DNA of 43,264 nucleotides from OM182 bacterium (lineage in GTDB: Bacteria; Pseudomonadota; Gammaproteobacteria; Pseudomonadales; Azotimanducaceae), in contig SHAE01000004.1 of the NCBI GenBank assembly GCA_004213835.1, forward strand, positions 1-43,264, in the 5' to 3' direction. This document shows positions 3,271 through 14,179 of the stretch, piece after piece (the stretch's first letter is position 1; every line of letters begins with the position of its first letter). The notes below the pieces were generated by a model that saw only the letters and a program-made list of their open reading frames with translations, had not been told where the DNA came from and did not search any database. Position numbers and translations under genes: made by a program.

Positions 3271-6200
3271 CTAGCGCAGCAAATTTAGCGTCGATCTGAG
3301 AATCTCGTTGGTGTTGGTGAGCACAAAACCCGCAAGCTGTTTGATCATTTCTTCCTTGGCCAGCAGCGCACTTTCTAAGGCGAAGTCCGCATCGACGATG
3401 CGGCCCCTCGCGGTCTCCATTTGCAGCGACCGGTCGAGCAGGCGCTCCATGCGAAAGTCCACCGACTGGGACACCGCGCTCACATCCGCTTGCCGGTCAG
3501 CAGAGAACGCCAATGCCTGATCCAATATCGTCAGCGCTGAATTGGCGCCGGCATTGGTTCGTACATCAATAGAGTTAACGCTTTCCAACTCGGCGACGAT
3601 GGGCTTTGAATCGATTTCAATGCGGTTTCCGATACGCTGGAGGTCATAAACTCGTCCGCCGTCTTCTTCGAAGCCGTACAGGCGATCAATAAGTTTGCTC
3701 AACTCCTGCTCATCGATGTTGGCTGTGTCCTTGGTGATGACCACTTCATCAATTCGCAGCGCGGCATCGGCCTGCACAATTTGCTCGCTCGAATCCACCA
3801 CCACGTTATCTACGTATAGATTCGCTCCAGCGGCTCTTCCACCGCTGGCGTCCCAAGTACCGGCGACAAAGACAAATTTATAGCTGCCCTGTTTGCTGAC
3901 GCTTTGCGTGACCGTGGCCCAATTCGTGCTCGCAGTCCTTGTTGCGCCGGTTTCATTCAGCAGTTCCTGCACTTCGCCGGTAGTTTCGTCGACCAAATAG
4001 CCGATAACGTCATAAGCATCCGAACCGCCGGTGGCCTGCCAATCAAAGCTCACGCTGTCACCCGGCTTGAGGCTCATCGCCTCATTACTGACCAAGTAAG
4101 GTCCATGCAAAATGCCATGGCCCTGCACGGTGACTCCCGTGGACTGCAGCTGCACGGAGAGGCCGTTGCCGTCAGAACTGTTACTAGAGAGCTGCGCTGT
4201 ATAAGTCGCGCTTGACGGTGCAGCGCCGTCGTGGGGTGCAGCATCAATCACCGTTGCGGGAAAAACGGTATCGCCCGGCGTTGGCTGACCGGCTACGGTA
4301 TCAAGCCCCCCAAGACGAACCTGTTGCGTATACGTCGTCCAGCCGGGAATCGATGTGTCACCGGCAGTACCGTTCTCGAACGTGCCGTTTTCAAAGGTTA
4401 CTTCCTTGTCGCTGCGAACCCCCCCGACGAATACGACGCGGTAGTCGCCGTCTTTTTCGATGGTCTTGTTGACGGTCGCCCAGCTGCTGGAGGCGGTGCC
4501 TTGGCCAGTCGCATTCAAAAGTTCTTCAGTGTGGCCAGTTGATTCATCGACGATATAGGCCATGACATCGTAGTCACCAGCGCCAGCTACCCCGCGCCAA
4601 TCAAATGACAGTACGTCGCCGGCTTCAAGGTTATAGGTTTGTGCGCTTTGTAGTGCAGGTCCATGCACGATGCCGACGTTGGGCATGCTGATTGGGCCGC
4701 TTTTTAGCTCCAACGAGTTGCCGTCATTACCGTCATCGTCGCTGACTTGCTGGAAAGAAAAAGCCACGTCGGCCTCGGGATAGGCAGCATCACCACTGGC
4801 CGGTAGCAGTCCGTTGGCAAAATTTGGTAGGGCTTGATCTTGCGGAACCGCGTGGTTGCCAATGCGCGAGGTGCCATCAAACACCACGCGCTGTTCAATT
4901 TTTTCCCAGCTGCGAAACGGATCGCTGCCGGTGACACCGGGCAGCGCATCGTCGATGCCAAAGGCAAACTTCAGGTCAAGGGACCCCGATGCGAGATTAG
5001 ACGTACCTGTGTCGACAAGGGCGACTACTTCGGCGGTCTCGCCGTCGCCTCGGTACATTTTGCCATCCACCAGCGACAGTGCGCCGCGCCTAAAATCGAT
5101 TTCGGTATCTTGTTGCAGGGCGCGTTGTTGGTTCGCTGAAAAGTGTCCGGTCGCGCCTTGGTTATAAACAGCAAATGCCTCACTCGACACCAGCTCTACA
5201 GAACCACTGATCAAGGTTGTGTCGTTGGCGCCGGCAACATCGAGGGATACCTGTGTACCCATGGCTGTGCCCGGGACACCATCTGCGGCGAGTTTCTGCA
5301 CGCGCAGCGTGTTGTAGCTGGCCTCGCGCCGGGTGTTTTCGATCACCATGTCTGCGCCAGAGTTGTCGACCAAGATCAGCGCACCGGCAACTTCGGAGGC
5401 TTGCACCCCCGTCTCGCCGGAGATTTTGTTGATGGCGTCAATCGCAGCACCAAGATCGCTGGCGCTGATGTTGAAATTAGCCGTTTGTGTGCCGTTGATC
5501 TTGAGACTGTAGATCTGCGGACTATCGCTCACTGTTGATAAGCGTGCTCGCGTTTCTGACTTGGCCACCACACCCGTATCTGCTGTTGATGCATTGATTT
5601 GTGCAGCAATTGCATCGGCACTGGCGCTGGCAGACCACTGCAGAGCCACCAGGTCACCGGCATTACCCACCAATTTGATTTCGCTGGTGCCTGCCGTGCG
5701 CGTTACATCACTACTGCTCGGTGCAGGGCCAAATGCATTTTCGCCCTGACTGAGATAGGAGTACGCGCCAATTTCGTTGGGCCGAAATCCGGAGAAGCGA
5801 TAGGAAACCATATCTCGAGCGTCGCCGCCCACATGAAACTGTCGGTGATCCTGCTCACCGTTAAGCAAACGCTGGCCGTTATAAACGGTGGTCTGCGTCA
5901 GTCGGTCGATTTCAGAAGTAAGCTGATCAACCTCGGCTTGCAGCAAATTGCGGTCCAATTCGGCCGTTGCATTGGCCGCCTGCATGGCCAGTACTCGTAT
6001 GCGCTGCAGCATGGTTTTGACCTGCTCAATAGCGCCATCAGTGGCGTTCAGCAGCGAACTGGTGTCGGAGATATTTTTGGTCGCTTGAGCCTCCCAAGCG
6101 ATGCGCGCACCCAGGGTTGACCCCGCGTAATAGGCGGAAGGATCGTCCTTGGCGCTGGCGACCGCCAAGCCCGTGCTTAGCCTTTCCATGCTCACAGCCG

Positions 6201-8734: not shown

Positions 8735-10207
8735 GTGACCACCGAAGTACTGTCAAAGAAAACACTGTATGCCCACGGCACCTTGGGCATGCCCTTGGCG
8801 GTTATTGGCTACCCGCTGTCCATTTGGATTCCCGCCCACTATTCCGGCGGATTGGGCATCAGCCTTGCTACCGTCGGCACGATTTTAATGTTGGCCCGTT
8901 TGACCGATGTGGTCACCGATCCACTGATTGGCGAACTCTCCGACCGCTGGCGCACACCCATCGGCCGACGTCGCCCATGGCTGCTGATTGGTCCACCGGT
9001 GATGATGATTGGTGTGTATAACTTGTTCATGCCAAGTGAGGGTGTCGGCACCATCTACTTCCTGTTCTGGCTGACGGTGTTCTTCGTCGGCAGCACCATG
9101 ATCACCCTGCCGCACCGCGCTTGGGGCGCCGAACTGTCTCCCGACTACCACCAACGCAGCCGCGTTACCGCAACGCGCGAGTTTTATGTGCTTGCGGGGC
9201 TGATGATCGCAGCCTCTGTCCCCATGATCATCGAGATCCAGGCCGATGGCGGTAACAGTGTTGGACAGGTATTCACGACCCTGTGGCAGGACGCCATCGG
9301 CGCCCTTGCCGGCGACTTCCGCGACAAAGAAGTTGTCGCGAGAGCCACCCTGACCGGTCCAGTGCTTACTGGCTTGGCTTGGGCCATCATCGCCGTGCTG
9401 CCCTTCTGTGCAGCCATTGTCCTAATCTTTGTTAAAGAACCACCGCCCATCGCTGGCGAAAAAAGACAGAGCATTCGCGAAGGTTTCCGTTTGGTTGCCA
9501 AGAACGGCCCCATGCTGCGCGTGCTGGCTATCGTGCTACTGGTGCACTTCGGCGAGTCATTTCGCAATGCGGTTTCGCTATTTTTCATTCGCGACATCGT
9601 CGGCGTTCCGACCATTGGTGCGGCGTACTTTTTCTATTTCATCGCCGGCTTTGCCGCCATTCCGTTCTGGCTATGGCTTGGCCGCAAAATAGGCAAACAT
9701 CGTGCATTCATGTGCACGCTCATTACGGTTGCCGCGGTCAGCGGGGCGAACCTTTTCCTCGACTATGGCGACTACTCGGTGTTCTTCCTGCTGTTCATCG
9801 TCAAAGGCTTTTGCTTTGGCGGCCTACAGTTTTTGCCTATTGCCATGCTCGCAGACGTGGTCGACGTTGATTCAGCGCGCAGCGGTTCTCAACGCGCCGG
9901 CACCTACTTCGCCTTTCTTGGATTTTCCGAAAAAATCGCTATCGCCTTTGGTACCGGTGTTTCTTTGAACATCGTCGGACTGCTTGGCTTCGACCCATCC
10001 GGCGGCGTTGCTGCGAGCACCGATGTGGGCGTCTGGGCGCTGCGCTTGGTCTATTGCATGGGGCCGATCGTTTTCTACGGACTGGCGCTGAAGCTGATTT
10101 GGAACTATCCGTTAACACCCGCGCGCCATAAGCGCCTGCAGGAACGGCTTGCCAGACGCGCACAGCGCCTCGCGGCGCAGCGTGCTCAGAGTTCTGGCGC
10201 AGGATAG
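8735..10207 (+). CDS. GPH-family (MFS) sugar:cation symporter
   Basis: 490 residues with about 12 hydrophobic segments, an inner-membrane transporter. The signature between TM2 and TM3, DPLIGELSDRW followed by GRRRPWLLIG, is that of the glycoside-pentoside-hexuronide:cation symporters (MelB/MFS_2). Members take up sugars or glycosides with H+ or Na+, and some relatives handle other small organic compounds. The start is GTG at 8735, fixed by GGGGAGG 7 bases upstream. The C-terminus is a basic cytoplasmic tail (about 465-490). It is convergent with the GST gene, with only 7 bases between stops. Substrate unknown. Confidence 0.85.
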   Translation: MTTEVLSKKTLYAHGTLGMPLAVIGYPLSIWIPAHYSGGLGISLATVGTILMLARLTDVVTDPLIGELSDRWRTPIGRRRPWLLIGPPVMMIGVYNLFMPSEGVGTIYFLFWLTVFFVGSTMITLPHRAWGAELSPDYHQRSRVTATREFYVLAGLMIAASVPMIIEIQADGGNSVGQVFTTLWQDAIGALAGDFRDKEVVARATLTGPVLTGLAWAIIAVLPFCAAIVLIFVKEPPPIAGEKRQSIREGFRLVAKNGPMLRVLAIVLLVHFGESFRNAVSLFFIRDIVGVPTIGAAYFFYFIAGFAAIPFWLWLGRKIGKHRAFMCTLITVAAVSGANLFLDYGDYSVFFLLFIVKGFCFGGLQFLPIAMLADVVDVDSARSGSQRAGTYFAFLGFSEKIAIAFGTGVSLNIVGLLGFDPSGGVAASTDVGVWALRLVYCMGPIVFYGLALKLIWNYPLTPARHKRLQERLARRAQRLAAQRAQSSGAG

Positions 10208-11244: not shown

Positions 11245-12405
11245 CTATCCGCCAGACAAGCTCATCGCCCTAACGGTAGGGGAATCGGCCAAGCTGTCTG
11301 TCCAGGCAAAAATCAACCGATCATCGCTTTGCACCATGCGCGGAAAGCCTGCGTTGCGGTGCGATGCCATCGGGGCTACCAAATGAATCTTGCCCATTTC
11401 GCCAGAGGGTTGAACTCGTCGATAGACAAAGCCTTGCTGCGCCGGCGACAGCCAACTGACGATGGCATTGCCCGCAGCATCGACCACCAGATCCACCCGG
11501 CCAACGGGGCTGTCTGGGCTGACATCTACCGGCGCGGCAAAACTGCGCCCCCCGTCAAATGAAAAGGCCACCCGTACAGAATTGACTGGCACGGCGGTGA
11601 ACCAAGCCACGGCGACCACGTCATGCGCAGCGGCGATGGCCGGGCCATTGACTGGACAACCAGTGATGTACCAACCGTCTTCGGCCACGGGAGTACTCAC
11701 CCAAGCGCCATTTTCTTGTCGGGCGATGGAGATATCACGTATGTTGCTCTCACTGCGGTCGCGATACACCACCATGGGTGCGCCAGCCACCACGGCTACA
11801 TCGGTTTGGCAGCAATCGCAGACCAAGGCATCAACAACATCCTCAGATTGCGGCCCCGTTGCGCCAATCACCTTATGCCGTAGCTCCATACCGTCTGGTG
11901 CGTCGTCTTGGGCATAACGCTGACCGTCTAGCCAAAATGCGCCAACGCCGGTTCCACCCGCGTAGAGACTGACAAATCCATGCTCGGTTGCCGAGGTATC
12001 GGCATGCAGGCGCTGCGGAGTAGACCATGTCCTCCCGTCATCAGTAGACGTGGCGGTATACACGTCGTAGGCGAAGCCCGGTGCTGGATTTCGAATCATC
12101 CATTGGGCGGTGAGTTGATTATCCGCGTCGATCAGGGTGGGAAAGTCCGCCCAATTGACCAACAGATCTTCGCCTTCGGCGATCCTTCTCGGCGCAGACC
12201 ACTGATCCCCGCGCAGCTCACGCAAATATAGCGTTGCCATACCCTGTGCTTGCTGCAAATAAGTGAGCGTGACCGTGCCGTCATCTGCCACAGACAGACT
12301 CGGCTCGCCGGTGTTCGCCATCTGCGCAAGCGGTAGCTCTTTATATGCAGGTTGGCCACAACCCATGAACATAAAAGCCAGTGTGACGACGATCAGGTGT
12401 TTCAA
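11245..12405 (-). CDS. Sialidase-fold (BNR/Asp-box) lipoprotein with a CDCC motif
   Basis: 386 residues from a TTG start at 12405 (AAAAAGG 8 bases upstream). The frame continues upstream to another TTG without a ribosome site. Residues about 3-16 form a signal peptide ending in FMGC, a weak lipobox, so it is probably a lipoprotein. The body is a beta-propeller with Asp-boxes (STDDGRTW, FSFDGGRSF). It also carries VCDCCQTD and a later GCPVNGP, an unusual cysteine set that could bind a metal. No Arg triad of true sialidases was assigned, so glycosidase activity is not claimed. It is divergent from the CsoR-regulated operon and shares its control region, which suggests a role in the same metal response. 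Confidence 0.75.
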   Translation of the reverse strand: MKHLIVVTLAFMFMGCGQPAYKELPLAQMANTGEPSLSVADDGTVTLTYLQQAQGMATLYLRELRGDQWSAPRRIAEGEDLLVNWADFPTLIDADNQLTAQWMIRNPAPGFAYDVYTATSTDDGRTWSTPQRLHADTSATEHGFVSLYAGGTGVGAFWLDGQRYAQDDAPDGMELRHKVIGATGPQSEDVVDALVCDCCQTDVAVVAGAPMVVYRDRSESNIRDISIARQENGAWVSTPVAEDGWYITGCPVNGPAIAAAHDVVAVAWFTAVPVNSVRVAFSFDGGRSFAAPVDVSPDSPVGRVDLVVDAAGNAIVSWLSPAQQGFVYRRVQPSGEMGKIHLVAPMASHRNAGFPRMVQSDDRLIFAWTDSLADSPTVRAMSLSGG

Positions 12406-12472
12406 TCTGGATACCTTTTTCTCTTTTTTGTCTCGGTTGTCGAGCAGACAACGATTAGTCAACAGCGGAAGC

Positions 12473-12517
12473 TTGACAACGTTGCCACGACGCCGAGTAT
12501 ACCCCCCATGGGTATAC
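12473..12517 (+). promoter_or_regulatory. Promoter and CsoR/RcnR-type operator of the metal operon
   Basis: TTGACA (12473-12478) is a perfect -35. TATACC (12498-12503) is the likely -10, with a 19-base spacer. Over it sits the inverted repeat GTATACCC-CCCAT-GGGTATAC (12497-12517), an A/T-flanked G/C tract typical of CsoR/RcnR/InrS sites. The repeat also covers the ATG at 12508. A repressor bound here would block both the -10 and the transcript start. The operon's last gene encodes a CsoR-family protein, the obvious candidate. Confidence 0.7.
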
Positions 12518-13110
12518 GTTTTATTTGGTTAGTGCTGTGTTTGGTCTCGCCGATCCTTGCGGCTCGGCCGATCTCCTATTCAGGGGGCTCCACCCTAATG
12601 GCCTTCACGGAGCGAGCCAAGCATTCGGTGTACTACCACTATTCACCCACCTATCAATACTCGCTGGGTGTTGAGGGTGTCAGGAACCGCATCAGCGGTG
12701 ATGAGCACAGTTACGTGCGATTGACCTACCTGCTGAACCGTAAAAATACCCAGCACTCACAGCGCAACCTATACCTACAGTCTGGTATTGATCCGGTTGA
12801 TTTAGACCACCATTTCTATGGCGTGCACGGCGACTGGGAAACGCGGCGACTCTTCAGCGGTTTTGGTTACAAGTATGTCAACGATCAGGGCAGCGACTAT
12901 GAGGAACAATTTGTGCAGCTCGGCGTCGCCCCTTACTTGGGCAACTACGGCGACCTGCACACCTGGCTGATGCTCAAGAGCAAAAAAAATACGCTATTCG
13001 GCTCTTGGTCTACCTACCCGGTGATACGCCTGTTTAAGGGCAACGTTTTTGCCGAATTTGGTTATAGCGATCGATCCCAATGGGATGCCCATCTCATGTA
13101 TCGGTTTTAA
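12508..13110 (+). CDS. Predicted small outer-membrane beta-barrel, metal operon
   Basis: 200 residues. A signal peptide (1-18, ending SPILA) is followed by alternating polar and aromatic segments (SVYYHYSPTYQYSLGVEG, SYVRLTYLL, LFSGFGYKYV). The protein ends in MYRF, a C-terminal Phe as in proteins inserted by the BAM complex. I do not recognise a named family. No ribosome site precedes the ATG and the predicted transcript start is at or next to it, so translation may be leaderless. It is first in an apparent operon with the HMA, MerT-like and CsoR genes, so a metal-related envelope role is inferred. Confidence 0.75.
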   Translation: MGIRFIWLVLCLVSPILAARPISYSGGSTLMAFTERAKHSVYYHYSPTYQYSLGVEGVRNRISGDEHSYVRLTYLLNRKNTQHSQRNLYLQSGIDPVDLDHHFYGVHGDWETRRLFSGFGYKYVNDQGSDYEEQFVQLGVAPYLGNYGDLHTWLMLKSKKNTLFGSWSTYPVIRLFKGNVFAEFGYSDRSQWDAHLMYRF

Positions 13111-13147
13111 AGCTTCATCTATCACAACTCATATCTAAGGAAACAAC

Positions 13148-13543
13148 ATGACTCAATTGATGACCTTGATTCTGCTATTTGCCACCTCTTGTTTCGCCTT
13201 GGCAGACGAAAAGTCTGCCCACGCCATGCACGAGGCCGACGTCTTCATCGATGGCAGCGCCATAGACATCGACTCCGACCAACTGGAGCGCTTTACCGCA
13301 GATTTACAGGGCGGTCAGGTGGCCGTTGTCAGTGTCATGGGCATGGTCTGCGACTTTTGCGCGCGAGGCATCGAAAAAACCTTCAAACGCGACAAATCGG
13401 TCATCAAGGTGGACGTAGACCTAGCCAAGGGCAAGGTACTCATCGCCTTCGCATCCACGGCGCCCATAGACCGCGAGGCTATCGACCGCAAAATTCTGGC
13501 CAATGGACAAAATGTAACCGCCGTGCAGATATTGAGCATTTGA
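13148..13543 (+). CDS. Periplasmic heavy-metal-associated (HMA) domain protein
   Basis: 131 residues. A signal peptide (1-19) leads to a His-containing linker (SAHAMHEADVF) and an HMA fold. The metal site is GMVCDFCARG, with Cys68 and Cys71. This is the MerP/Atx1-type GMxCxxC motif that binds Cu(I), Hg(II) or similar soft ions and passes them to a partner. A good ribosome site (AAGGAAACAAC) precedes the ATG. It lies 7 bases before the MerT-like gene, and the pair recalls MerP-MerT. The metal is unproven; the CsoR-type regulator points to copper. Confidence 0.85.
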   Translation: MTQLMTLILLFATSCFALADEKSAHAMHEADVFIDGSAIDIDSDQLERFTADLQGGQVAVVSVMGMVCDFCARGIEKTFKRDKSVIKVDVDLAKGKVLIAFASTAPIDREAIDRKILANGQNVTAVQILSI

Positions 13544-13550
13544 GCGTCAA

Positions 13551-13922
13551 ATGAACGATCGCGCCGCCAACTTCTTTTCGCTATTCGCGTCTTCCTCAAC
13601 GCTGATCTGCTGTGCGCTGCCGTCGCTCTTTGTCGTGCTAGGCGCCGGCGCTAGCTTTGCCAGCCTGCTCACGATCTTTCCGTTTCTGATCGTGCTGTCC
13701 CAGTTTAAGGTGACCATCTCCCTCATCGCCTTGGCGACGATTGCGCTGGCGGGATTCGCTCACTATAAGACAGCCCGACTGCCTTGCCCGGCGGACCCCG
13801 AACTGGGGCGCGCCTGTCTGCAGTCGAGAAAGCGTGCACGCGTGCTTTACTATGTGAGCGTCAGCATTTTTGTCTTTGCGACGATTTTTACCTACCTAGT
13901 ACCACGAGTGATCTTCTCATGA
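13551..13922 (+). CDS. MerT-like inner-membrane metal transport protein
   Basis: 123 residues with three hydrophobic segments (about 12-35, 37-70 and 97-118). As in MerT, a vicinal Cys pair (Cys20-Cys21 in TLICCALPS) lies in the first membrane helix. A second pair (Cys79, Cys89, in LPCPADPELGRAC) sits in the loop before the third helix. MerT takes Hg(II) from MerP and carries it inward by Cys-to-Cys exchange. Here the HMA protein encoded just upstream is the likely donor. Direction of transport and metal are not shown by sequence. Its stop overlaps the next ATG. Confidence 0.8.
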   Translation: MNDRAANFFSLFASSSTLICCALPSLFVVLGAGASFASLLTIFPFLIVLSQFKVTISLIALATIALAGFAHYKTARLPCPADPELGRACLQSRKRARVLYYVSVSIFVFATIFTYLVPRVIFS

Positions 13923-14179
13923 GCCATCCATGTCATACCCACTTGCTACCTAACCTGCGTCGTATCGAAGGGCAGATGCGCGGCATCGCCAAGATGGTGG
14001 AAGAGGAACAGTACTGTATCGACATACTGAATCAGATTAAGGCCGTGCGAAATTCCCTCGCCAACGTCGAAGGCAAGATTTTGCAGACGCATCTAAAGGC
14101 CTGCGTGCGCGACTCCCTCGAGGCCACAGAGGACTTCGATGCCAAGGTCGAAGAAGTCATCAAAGTACTGAAACGCTAA
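13919..14179 (+). CDS. CsoR/RcnR-family metal-sensing repressor
   Basis: 86 residues, all helical. The start ATG overlaps the upstream stop (ATGA at 13919-13922), so translation is coupled. It has the family DNA-binding surface LRRIEGQMRGI (13-23). The sensor ligands are Cys33, His58 and Cys62, with the 24- and 3-residue spacing of Cu(I)-sensing CsoR; RcnR has His at the last place and FrmR has none. The N-terminus (SHPCHTH) adds His3, Cys5, His6 and His8, which may give an extra ligand as in nickel sensors. It likely binds the inverted repeat at 12497-12517 and releases it on metal binding. Confidence 0.9.
   Translation: MSHPCHTHLLPNLRRIEGQMRGIAKMVEEEQYCIDILNQIKAVRNSLANVEGKILQTHLKACVRDSLEATEDFDAKVEEVIKVLKR

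Follow-up and report, generated by a model that had tools for sequence, protein, structure and literature searches.

A conserved operon of barrel, HMA, MerT-like and CsoR-type genes in ocean bacteria, probably serving copper tolerance

We analysed a 43,264-nucleotide stretch of the OM182 bacterium assembly GCA_004213835.1 (contig SHAE01000004.1), which is referred to as the window. Four genes at 12508-14179 on the forward strand are a conserved operon for a barrel predicted to lie in the outer membrane, an exported HMA protein, a MerT-like protein and a CsoR repressor. We read these genes as an operon for copper tolerance that regulates itself and moves copper through the envelope with neither an ATPase nor an RND pump of its own, and put the probability of this reading at about 0.6. 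The operon combines known families with a barrel family that has no curated model, in an arrangement that we could not find described. Its genes are the following:

12508-13110, forward strand: predicted outer-membrane barrel gene, an open reading frame (ORF), first of the four operon genes
13148-13543, forward strand: HMA protein gene, with a signal peptide (assigned by eye), a His-rich linker and a GMVCDFC motif; above the Pfam HMA cutoff
13551-13922, forward strand: MerT-like inner-membrane protein gene, with a CC pair in the first transmembrane helix (TM1) and C79/C89 in an Arg-rich loop
13919-14179, forward strand: CsoR-type repressor gene, last in the operon; above the Pfam cutoff

In the window the start of csoR overlaps the stop of the MerT-like gene by 4 nt. 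An earlier account of this DNA, made from its letters alone (the sequence-only reading), had described five adjacent ORFs, i.e. a probable lipoprotein gene in addition to these four, as one metal system that spans the envelope under a CsoR-type regulator and lacks merA, merR and a copper ATPase. All five ORFs are present in the window; the envelope-spanning set of metal-type proteins with its CsoR regulator is supported and is also kept in other genomes, and the three absences hold at the locus. The unit itself has to be reduced: four genes are conserved together, whereas the lipoprotein gene adjoins them in just 4 of 15 operon-bearing genomes.

The conservation of the operon was examined in two genome sets. 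The first comprised 58 genomes, the window's own included, of which 15 carry the barrel. In all 15 the barrel, HMA, MerT-like and CsoR genes share a contig and the same order, so the co-occurrence in other genomes that the sequence-only reading had proposed as a check was found for these four families, the lipoprotein not being part of the core. In G013 the CsoR gene lies about 0.7 kb further on than in the other operon-bearing genomes, the CsoR gene of G024 is cut by the contig end, and the barrel match of G028 is partial with an internal stop. Matches to the MerT-like query were also obtained in five more distantly related genomes, and CsoR-family proteins match in 27 of the 58 genomes, i.e. 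both families occur outside this operon too.

The second set came from a pattern scan of a species-genome collection, which returned 229 barrel relatives; the best 80 were taken as loci, 10 of them contigs of relatives already counted in the first set. The four genes stand in order, on one strand and within 2.5 kb, in 74 of these best 80 loci, with L042 (CsoR cut) and L088 (CsoR truncated) counted among the complete ones. Four of the six incomplete loci (L051, L058, L083 and L113) break off within the operon, and L114 and L115 lack only CsoR. According to their records, the carriers belong to SAR86, SAR92/Porticoccaceae, K189A, AqS3, the PS1 clade, a few other Alphaproteobacteria and further Gammaproteobacteria; SAR86 and SAR92 are common surface-ocean lineages. 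In a tree of the concatenated proteins (66 rows) the rows from Alphaproteobacteria are spread over more than one position. We do not claim horizontal transfer, because several of these rows are bins of metagenome-assembled genomes. The plasmid and viral collections held no barrel relative.

The identity of the metal is best judged from the sensor. As the sequence-only reading proposed, it is of the CsoR type: the window protein matches PF02583 at 96.5 bits, the curated cutoff being 22.8. The ligands C33, H58 and C62 (Cys-His-Cys, C-H-C) are present in 56 of 56 aligned CsoR sequences, from which the cut L042 and truncated L088 proteins were left out, and so is the second shell: Y32 at position A, E79 at position B, and K76 rather than Glu or Asp at position C, the three positions being mapped via an alignment with InrS. 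His6 is likewise invariant (56/56). In the available text of PMC4235346, Cu(I) selectivity is predicted by a Tyr at position A, a residue never combined with Glu or Asp at position C in the curated family set. According to the same text, the metal cannot be told from Cys/His patterns alone, and the full Tyr-Glu pair is not found in any of the paper's known or deduced nickel sensors. NreA is a nickel sensor and, according to the accessible part of PMC12724321, has a C-H-C site; it fits the statement on Cys/His patterns. In a profile search the two best solved relatives of the window sensor were named copper CsoRs (1.6e-24 and 5.5e-22). Copper as a candidate metal, which had been proposed from the start, is thus well supported by the residue fingerprint of the sensor; Cu(I) would be the inducer, and silver would probably take the same path as copper.

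A palindrome at the start of the barrel gene is the probable operator. The control region contains the following elements:

12497-12517, no strand assigned: probable operator, palindrome GTATACCC-N5-GGGTATAC enclosing the barrel ATG; perfect 8-nt arms, kept in relatives
12473-12478, forward strand: -35-like TTGACA, 16 nt upstream of the -10 position; read from the sequence
12495-12500, forward strand: -10 position, GAGTAT (weak), 7 nt before the start codon; TAnnAT in most relatives

The core of the palindrome, which the sequence-only reading had overlooked, is ATACCC-N5-GGGTAT; the palindrome holds the barrel start codon and extends from the -10 region to codon 3. Its conservation was assessed in the 68 of 80 loci with a barrel match starting from the first residue, a set chosen blind to the site. 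ATACCC-N4/5-GGGTAT lies at the start codon in 66 of these, the start codon is ATG in 67 and GTG in one, and codon 2 is GGT in all 68, as compared to 35% GGT among their other Gly codons. With a looser pattern, applied to 81 sequences (the 80 loci and the window), the site contains an in-frame start in 73 and a start out of frame in five (one SAR86 group), and three have no site, which is decayed in L088 and lost to masking in L090 and to the contig end in L104. Among the 73 operator-bearing starts, a TAnnAT hexamer that partly overlaps the palindrome stands 7 nt before the ATG in 62, TTGAC is found within -45 to -25 in 25, and a motif resembling a Shine-Dalgarno sequence in just four. The palindrome at the start codon, the position of the TAnnAT hexamer and the rarity of Shine-Dalgarno-like motifs, taken together, imply a leaderless mRNA that would start at or beside the barrel ATG, under autoregulation by CsoR.

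The protein that binds the palindrome would be CsoR. In L088, the single locus seen with a truncated CsoR gene, the upstream half of the palindrome is lost as well (L088:2060-2180 and 3500-3650), and such joint decay is expected if one serves the other. The exact core with a spacer of 3 to 7 nt (ATACCC-N3..7-GGGTAT) occurs once per genome in five of nine genomes scanned (G000, G033, G019 and two SAR86 genomes, the window's genome and a complete SAR86 chromosome included) and three times in the other four. The simplest reading would be that CsoR autoregulates mainly this operon.

Two further observations concern the site. In G024 a second copy, ATACCC-CAAT-GGGTAT, was found at C34:1311-1326, holding ATGGGTAT; it may be a second target. 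In the SAR86 group L095, L096, L101, L105 and L107 (starts near 9976-9995) the palindrome ATG begins an ORF of 10 codons, which passes through a T9 run to a TAA that overlaps the next ATG (TAATG); this second ATG is in the barrel frame. The five assemblies concur, and making the barrel would here need re-initiation or slippage on the T run.

The three envelope proteins were compared with curated families and aligned with their relatives. The HMA protein, earlier described as periplasmic, has a signal peptide by eye and matches PF00403 at 30.9 bits (cutoff 24.8). M66, C68, D69, F70 and C71, i.e. the GMVCDFC motif with its CDFC, are conserved in 49 of 49 sequences, which have a median of six His residues before the HMA domain (range 1-15). 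The next protein had earlier been described as MerT-like with two cysteine pairs. C20 and C21 in TM1 and C79 and C89 in the loop are present in 61 of 61 sequences, and 53 of the 61, the window's included, match MerT (PF02411) at E<=0.01, but the window copy remains below the curated cutoff (19.5 vs 32.9 bits) and had no match in a PDB sequence search. We take the roles of the cysteine pairs to be those known for MerT. The loop with C79 and C89 is rich in Arg, which suggests that it lies on the cytosolic side, as in MerT.

The outer-membrane barrel of the sequence-only reading is borne out as a prediction: the AlphaFold2 model has 12 strands, with a predicted local distance difference test score (pLDDT) of 85.8 and a predicted template modelling score (pTM) of 0.77. 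R199 and F200 are found in at least 90% of the sequences, and the C terminus has the aromatic residue typical of such barrels, the fold itself being a prediction. The window barrel matches no Pfam or NCBIfam model, 65 members of the family gave just two chance-level Pfam hits, and a PDB sequence search returned one chance match only (E 0.32). A fold search listed general barrels (FapF, autotransporter domains, KdgM, NanC and a COG4313 channel), with a best VIA Z of 16.2 and identities of 14% or less. Since these are general barrels they give no hint as to function; PcoB/CopB was not among the matches listed, though a fold of its kind would be compatible with the list. Cys is missing from the mature barrel in 64 of 65 sequences, and conservation exceeds 85% at seven Met/His positions (M31, H44, H107, H151, M155, H195 and M197). 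All seven lie on the face marked inward by hydropathy; that they share a metal-binding site is a guess.

How the parts might work together can be sketched as follows. Apo-CsoR on the palindrome would cover the -10 region, the transcription start and the barrel ATG and so block the leaderless mRNA. On a rise of Cu(I) in the cytosol, the repressor would bind this ion via C33-H58-C62, helped by Y32 and E79, and leave the DNA. The MerT-like protein would then use thiol exchange, from the C79/C89 loop pair to C20/C21 in TM1, to move Cu(I) over the inner membrane, the His-rich HMA protein would ferry it through the periplasm, and the barrel would release it past a Met/His-lined lumen. CsoR, encoded by the last gene, would turn the system off again. 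The gene unit, the palindrome with its embedded start, the sensor fingerprint and the invariant cysteines are read directly from the sequences. We infer the interaction of the parts, the energy source of export and the outward direction, the last because a CsoR-type repressor releases DNA in metal excess, so that the genes would be made when copper must go. The complete proposal, i.e. a both-membrane copper exporter made of an outward-working MerT-type thiol carrier, an HMA shuttle and a Met/His-lined barrel, with CsoR on a leaderless start codon, in streamlined ocean bacteria that mostly lack CopA, is tentative, and we rate it at slightly under even odds.

The carriers were also surveyed for other copper genes. 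No P1B-type copper ATPase and no CusA/CzcA pump is encoded inside the operon. A copper ATPase was counted as full-length at E<1e-100 in the 58 genomes and at E<=1e-30 in 50 further operon-bearing genomes; the 15 and the 50 share three assemblies and thus give 62 distinct operon-bearing genomes. By these thresholds, and with many of the surveyed genomes incomplete, none of the 15 operon-bearing relatives has a full-length copper ATPase, as against 9 of 22 congeners that lack the operon and 19 of 21 relatives at the level of the order. The enzyme is absent from 49 of the 50 further genomes and hence from 61 of the 62, whereas 14 of 14 control genomes match, 13 of them above the cutoff. CusA/CzcA exceeds its cutoff in three of the 62 and, by that cutoff, is lacking from 59. 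IMCC14465, a cultured alphaproteobacterial carrier, has CopA as well as a pump of the CusA/CzcA type. Within the window's genus the contrast between genomes with and without the operon is significant (0/15 vs 9/22, p=0.005), and it is also seen among genomes at least 90% complete (0/8 vs 9/17, p=0.02).

Several points weigh against a copper-exporting operon. MerT proteins are known for inward transport, the membrane potential opposes the export of Cu+, no energy source is apparent, and the structure model of the MerT-like protein is poor (pLDDT 65) and was not used. An RND match at E<=1e-60 is found in 55 of the 62 operon-bearing genomes, nearly all under the heavy-metal cutoff. The rows of our comparisons are related, so the counts are not independent events. 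As for the promoter, the window's own -10 (GAGTAT) is weak and fails a consensus promoter scan, and L114 and L115 keep the palindrome, with a centre of 4 instead of 5 nt, although no CsoR gene follows the MerT-like gene (after 11400). As for the sensor, InrS (2.7e-15) scores no worse in the profile search than M. tuberculosis CsoR (8.7e-15), which makes the profile ranking weak support for copper, and C-H-C alone is no proof of copper since the nickel sensor NreA has it too, in the part of PMC12724321 at hand. The link with CopA is also loose: the contrast within the genus is lost in genomes of at most 3.5 Mb (0/15 vs 1/13, p=0.46), and CopA is missing from 198 of the 199 genomes sampled in the SAR86 order, yet just 56 of these 199 carry the barrel. 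The absence of CopA is largely a lineage trait. Since the association is lost in small genomes and in SAR86, the idea of a strict replacement of CopA by the operon, which we had considered, is weakened.

The sequence-only reading had suggested a copper uptake or routing path. The fingerprint of the sensor supports copper, and uptake we judge less likely than disposal, given that CsoR releases its DNA in metal excess. For uptake, the barrel would admit copper, the HMA protein would bind it and the MerT-like protein would carry it into the cytosol, as in Mer. This is unlikely in our view. In its favour, MerP and MerT act inward for mercury, and in 11 of 80 loci the csoR stop is overlapped by a gene of the PepSY_TM type, a family that includes reductase-like proteins. 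Moreover PcoB, which is encoded in a copper-defence operon and lies in the outer membrane, reportedly aids copper entry, in the part of PMC9210255 at our disposal. However, CsoR-type control would boost uptake when copper is already high, MerA, which could be the cytosolic sink, is above its cutoff in none of the 62 operon-bearing genomes, and no cytosolic copper enzyme in need of such a supply is known to us. The lack of MerA also speaks against a remodelled mer operon for mercury, and for this reason we set that possibility very low. The side-by-side MerT-like and HMA proteins with four invariant cysteines would suit it, as would the MerC-like genes near 5 of 80 operons (the two tested, L062:9388-9795 and L089:1970-2407, are both above the cutoff) and the flavoproteins that the MerA search found below its cutoff in 48 of the 62 genomes, the closest reaching 407 of 454 bits (G082). 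But there is no MerR at the locus, the operon regulator in the window being CsoR-type, and mercury import without MerA should harm the cell.

A system for nickel, cobalt, silver or another metal under a sensor of the CsoR/RcnR family is improbable, more so than copper uptake. NreA, a C-H-C nickel sensor, also controls a leaderless operon (PMC12724321, as far as its text was available), His6 is invariant in our sensors, InrS scores like M. tuberculosis CsoR, and silver could follow the copper route. These points are countered by the two copper CsoRs that head the profile search and by the Tyr-Glu pair, present in 56 of 56 sequences here and in none of the known or deduced nickel sensors considered in the available text of PMC4235346, NreA's residue being outside that comparison. 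Finally, the HMA protein and the barrel could merely hold or vent periplasmic copper, while the MerT-like protein relays a signal or feeds periplasmic copper enzymes. The His residues before the HMA domain and the missing energy source for transport agree with such sequestration; nevertheless we give it very little weight in view of a MerT-like protein whose four cysteines are invariant and placed as in MerT, with the roles known for that protein.

The surroundings of the operon vary. The PepSY_TM-type membrane protein encoded at the csoR stop (e.g. L112:11659-12336) is a candidate cupric reductase. In five other loci a gene of this type lies upstream on the opposite strand. Two copies were tested, of which L112 is above and L053 below the Pfam cutoff; the rest were assigned by BLAST similarity. 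Each of five distant MerT-like relatives (L035-L039) has an HMA-type gene and another kind of barrel-like ORF next to it. The ORF of L038 is above the Phenol_MetA_deg cutoff, that of L037 is below it and the others were recognised by eye; a MerR-type regulator is present at L036 and L039. The HMA and MerT-like proteins have thus been joined with different barrels and regulators, an argument for a joint function of HMA protein, MerT-like protein and barrel. Kinship between the operon barrel and the barrel-like protein of L036 found no support (hhalign probability 0.4%). Cys-rich secreted proteins are encoded at L035, L036 and L037.

The fifth ORF of the sequence-only reading is a neighbour:

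11245-12405, reverse strand: BNR-repeat lipoprotein gene with CDCC, divergent, outside the conserved core; occasional neighbour

The CDCC motif of this probable lipoprotein is present as described, and its BNR_2 match (29.3 bits) is just below the Pfam cutoff of 31.4. The gene probably starts with the TTG at 12405, not at 12462, because an AAGG stretch precedes the former. Of the 58 genomes, 18 contain a matching homologue, which in 14 cases is not next to the operon, and we rejected the gene as a fifth member of the core. By eye, no metal-related neighbour was recognised at two of seven non-operon contexts, the two with ORFs listed (L120 and L125). The family members of the window, L120:3282-4451 and L125:4223-5458 have the CDCC and GCPVNGP motifs in common.

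If our reading is true, the operon would show how some ocean cells without the standard copper ATPase cope with copper, and that the Mer carrier fold can be redeployed. It also offers a tiny portable promoter with operator and start codon on the same bases. In agreement with the sequence-only reading, which did not recognise the arrangement, we found no description of the operon among the paper titles and opening lines of abstracts listed, in a search that covered few subscription journals.

Parts of the operon nonetheless resemble known systems. Like the Mer module (MerP-MerT), it has an exported HMA-type protein beside a small membrane protein with vicinal TM1 cysteines and a loop pair; unlike it, the operon has CsoR instead of MerR and an added barrel, MerA is above its cutoff in 0 of 62 genomes, and the MerT-like protein of the window is below the Pfam cutoff. 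The csoR-copZ-copA efflux operons also combine a Cu(I)-type CsoR with an HMA protein, but here the HMA protein has a signal peptide (by eye), and a copper ATPase is missing from the operon and, at full length, from 61 of 62 genomes. PcoB/CopB (PMC9210255, available in part) is likewise an outer-membrane barrel in a metal-related gene set; its PcoB pore is described there as electronegative, and the barrel of our operon has conserved Met/His and no significant PDB-sequence or Pfam match. The nreAXY operon of Mesorhizobium, according to the accessible part of PMC12724321, shares a repressor of the CsoR/RcnR family, a palindromic operator and a leaderless transcript, mapped there and inferred here. 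Its operator, however, lies between -35 and -10 and its metal is nickel, whereas the palindrome described here extends from -10 to codon 3 and the sensor bears a copper fingerprint.

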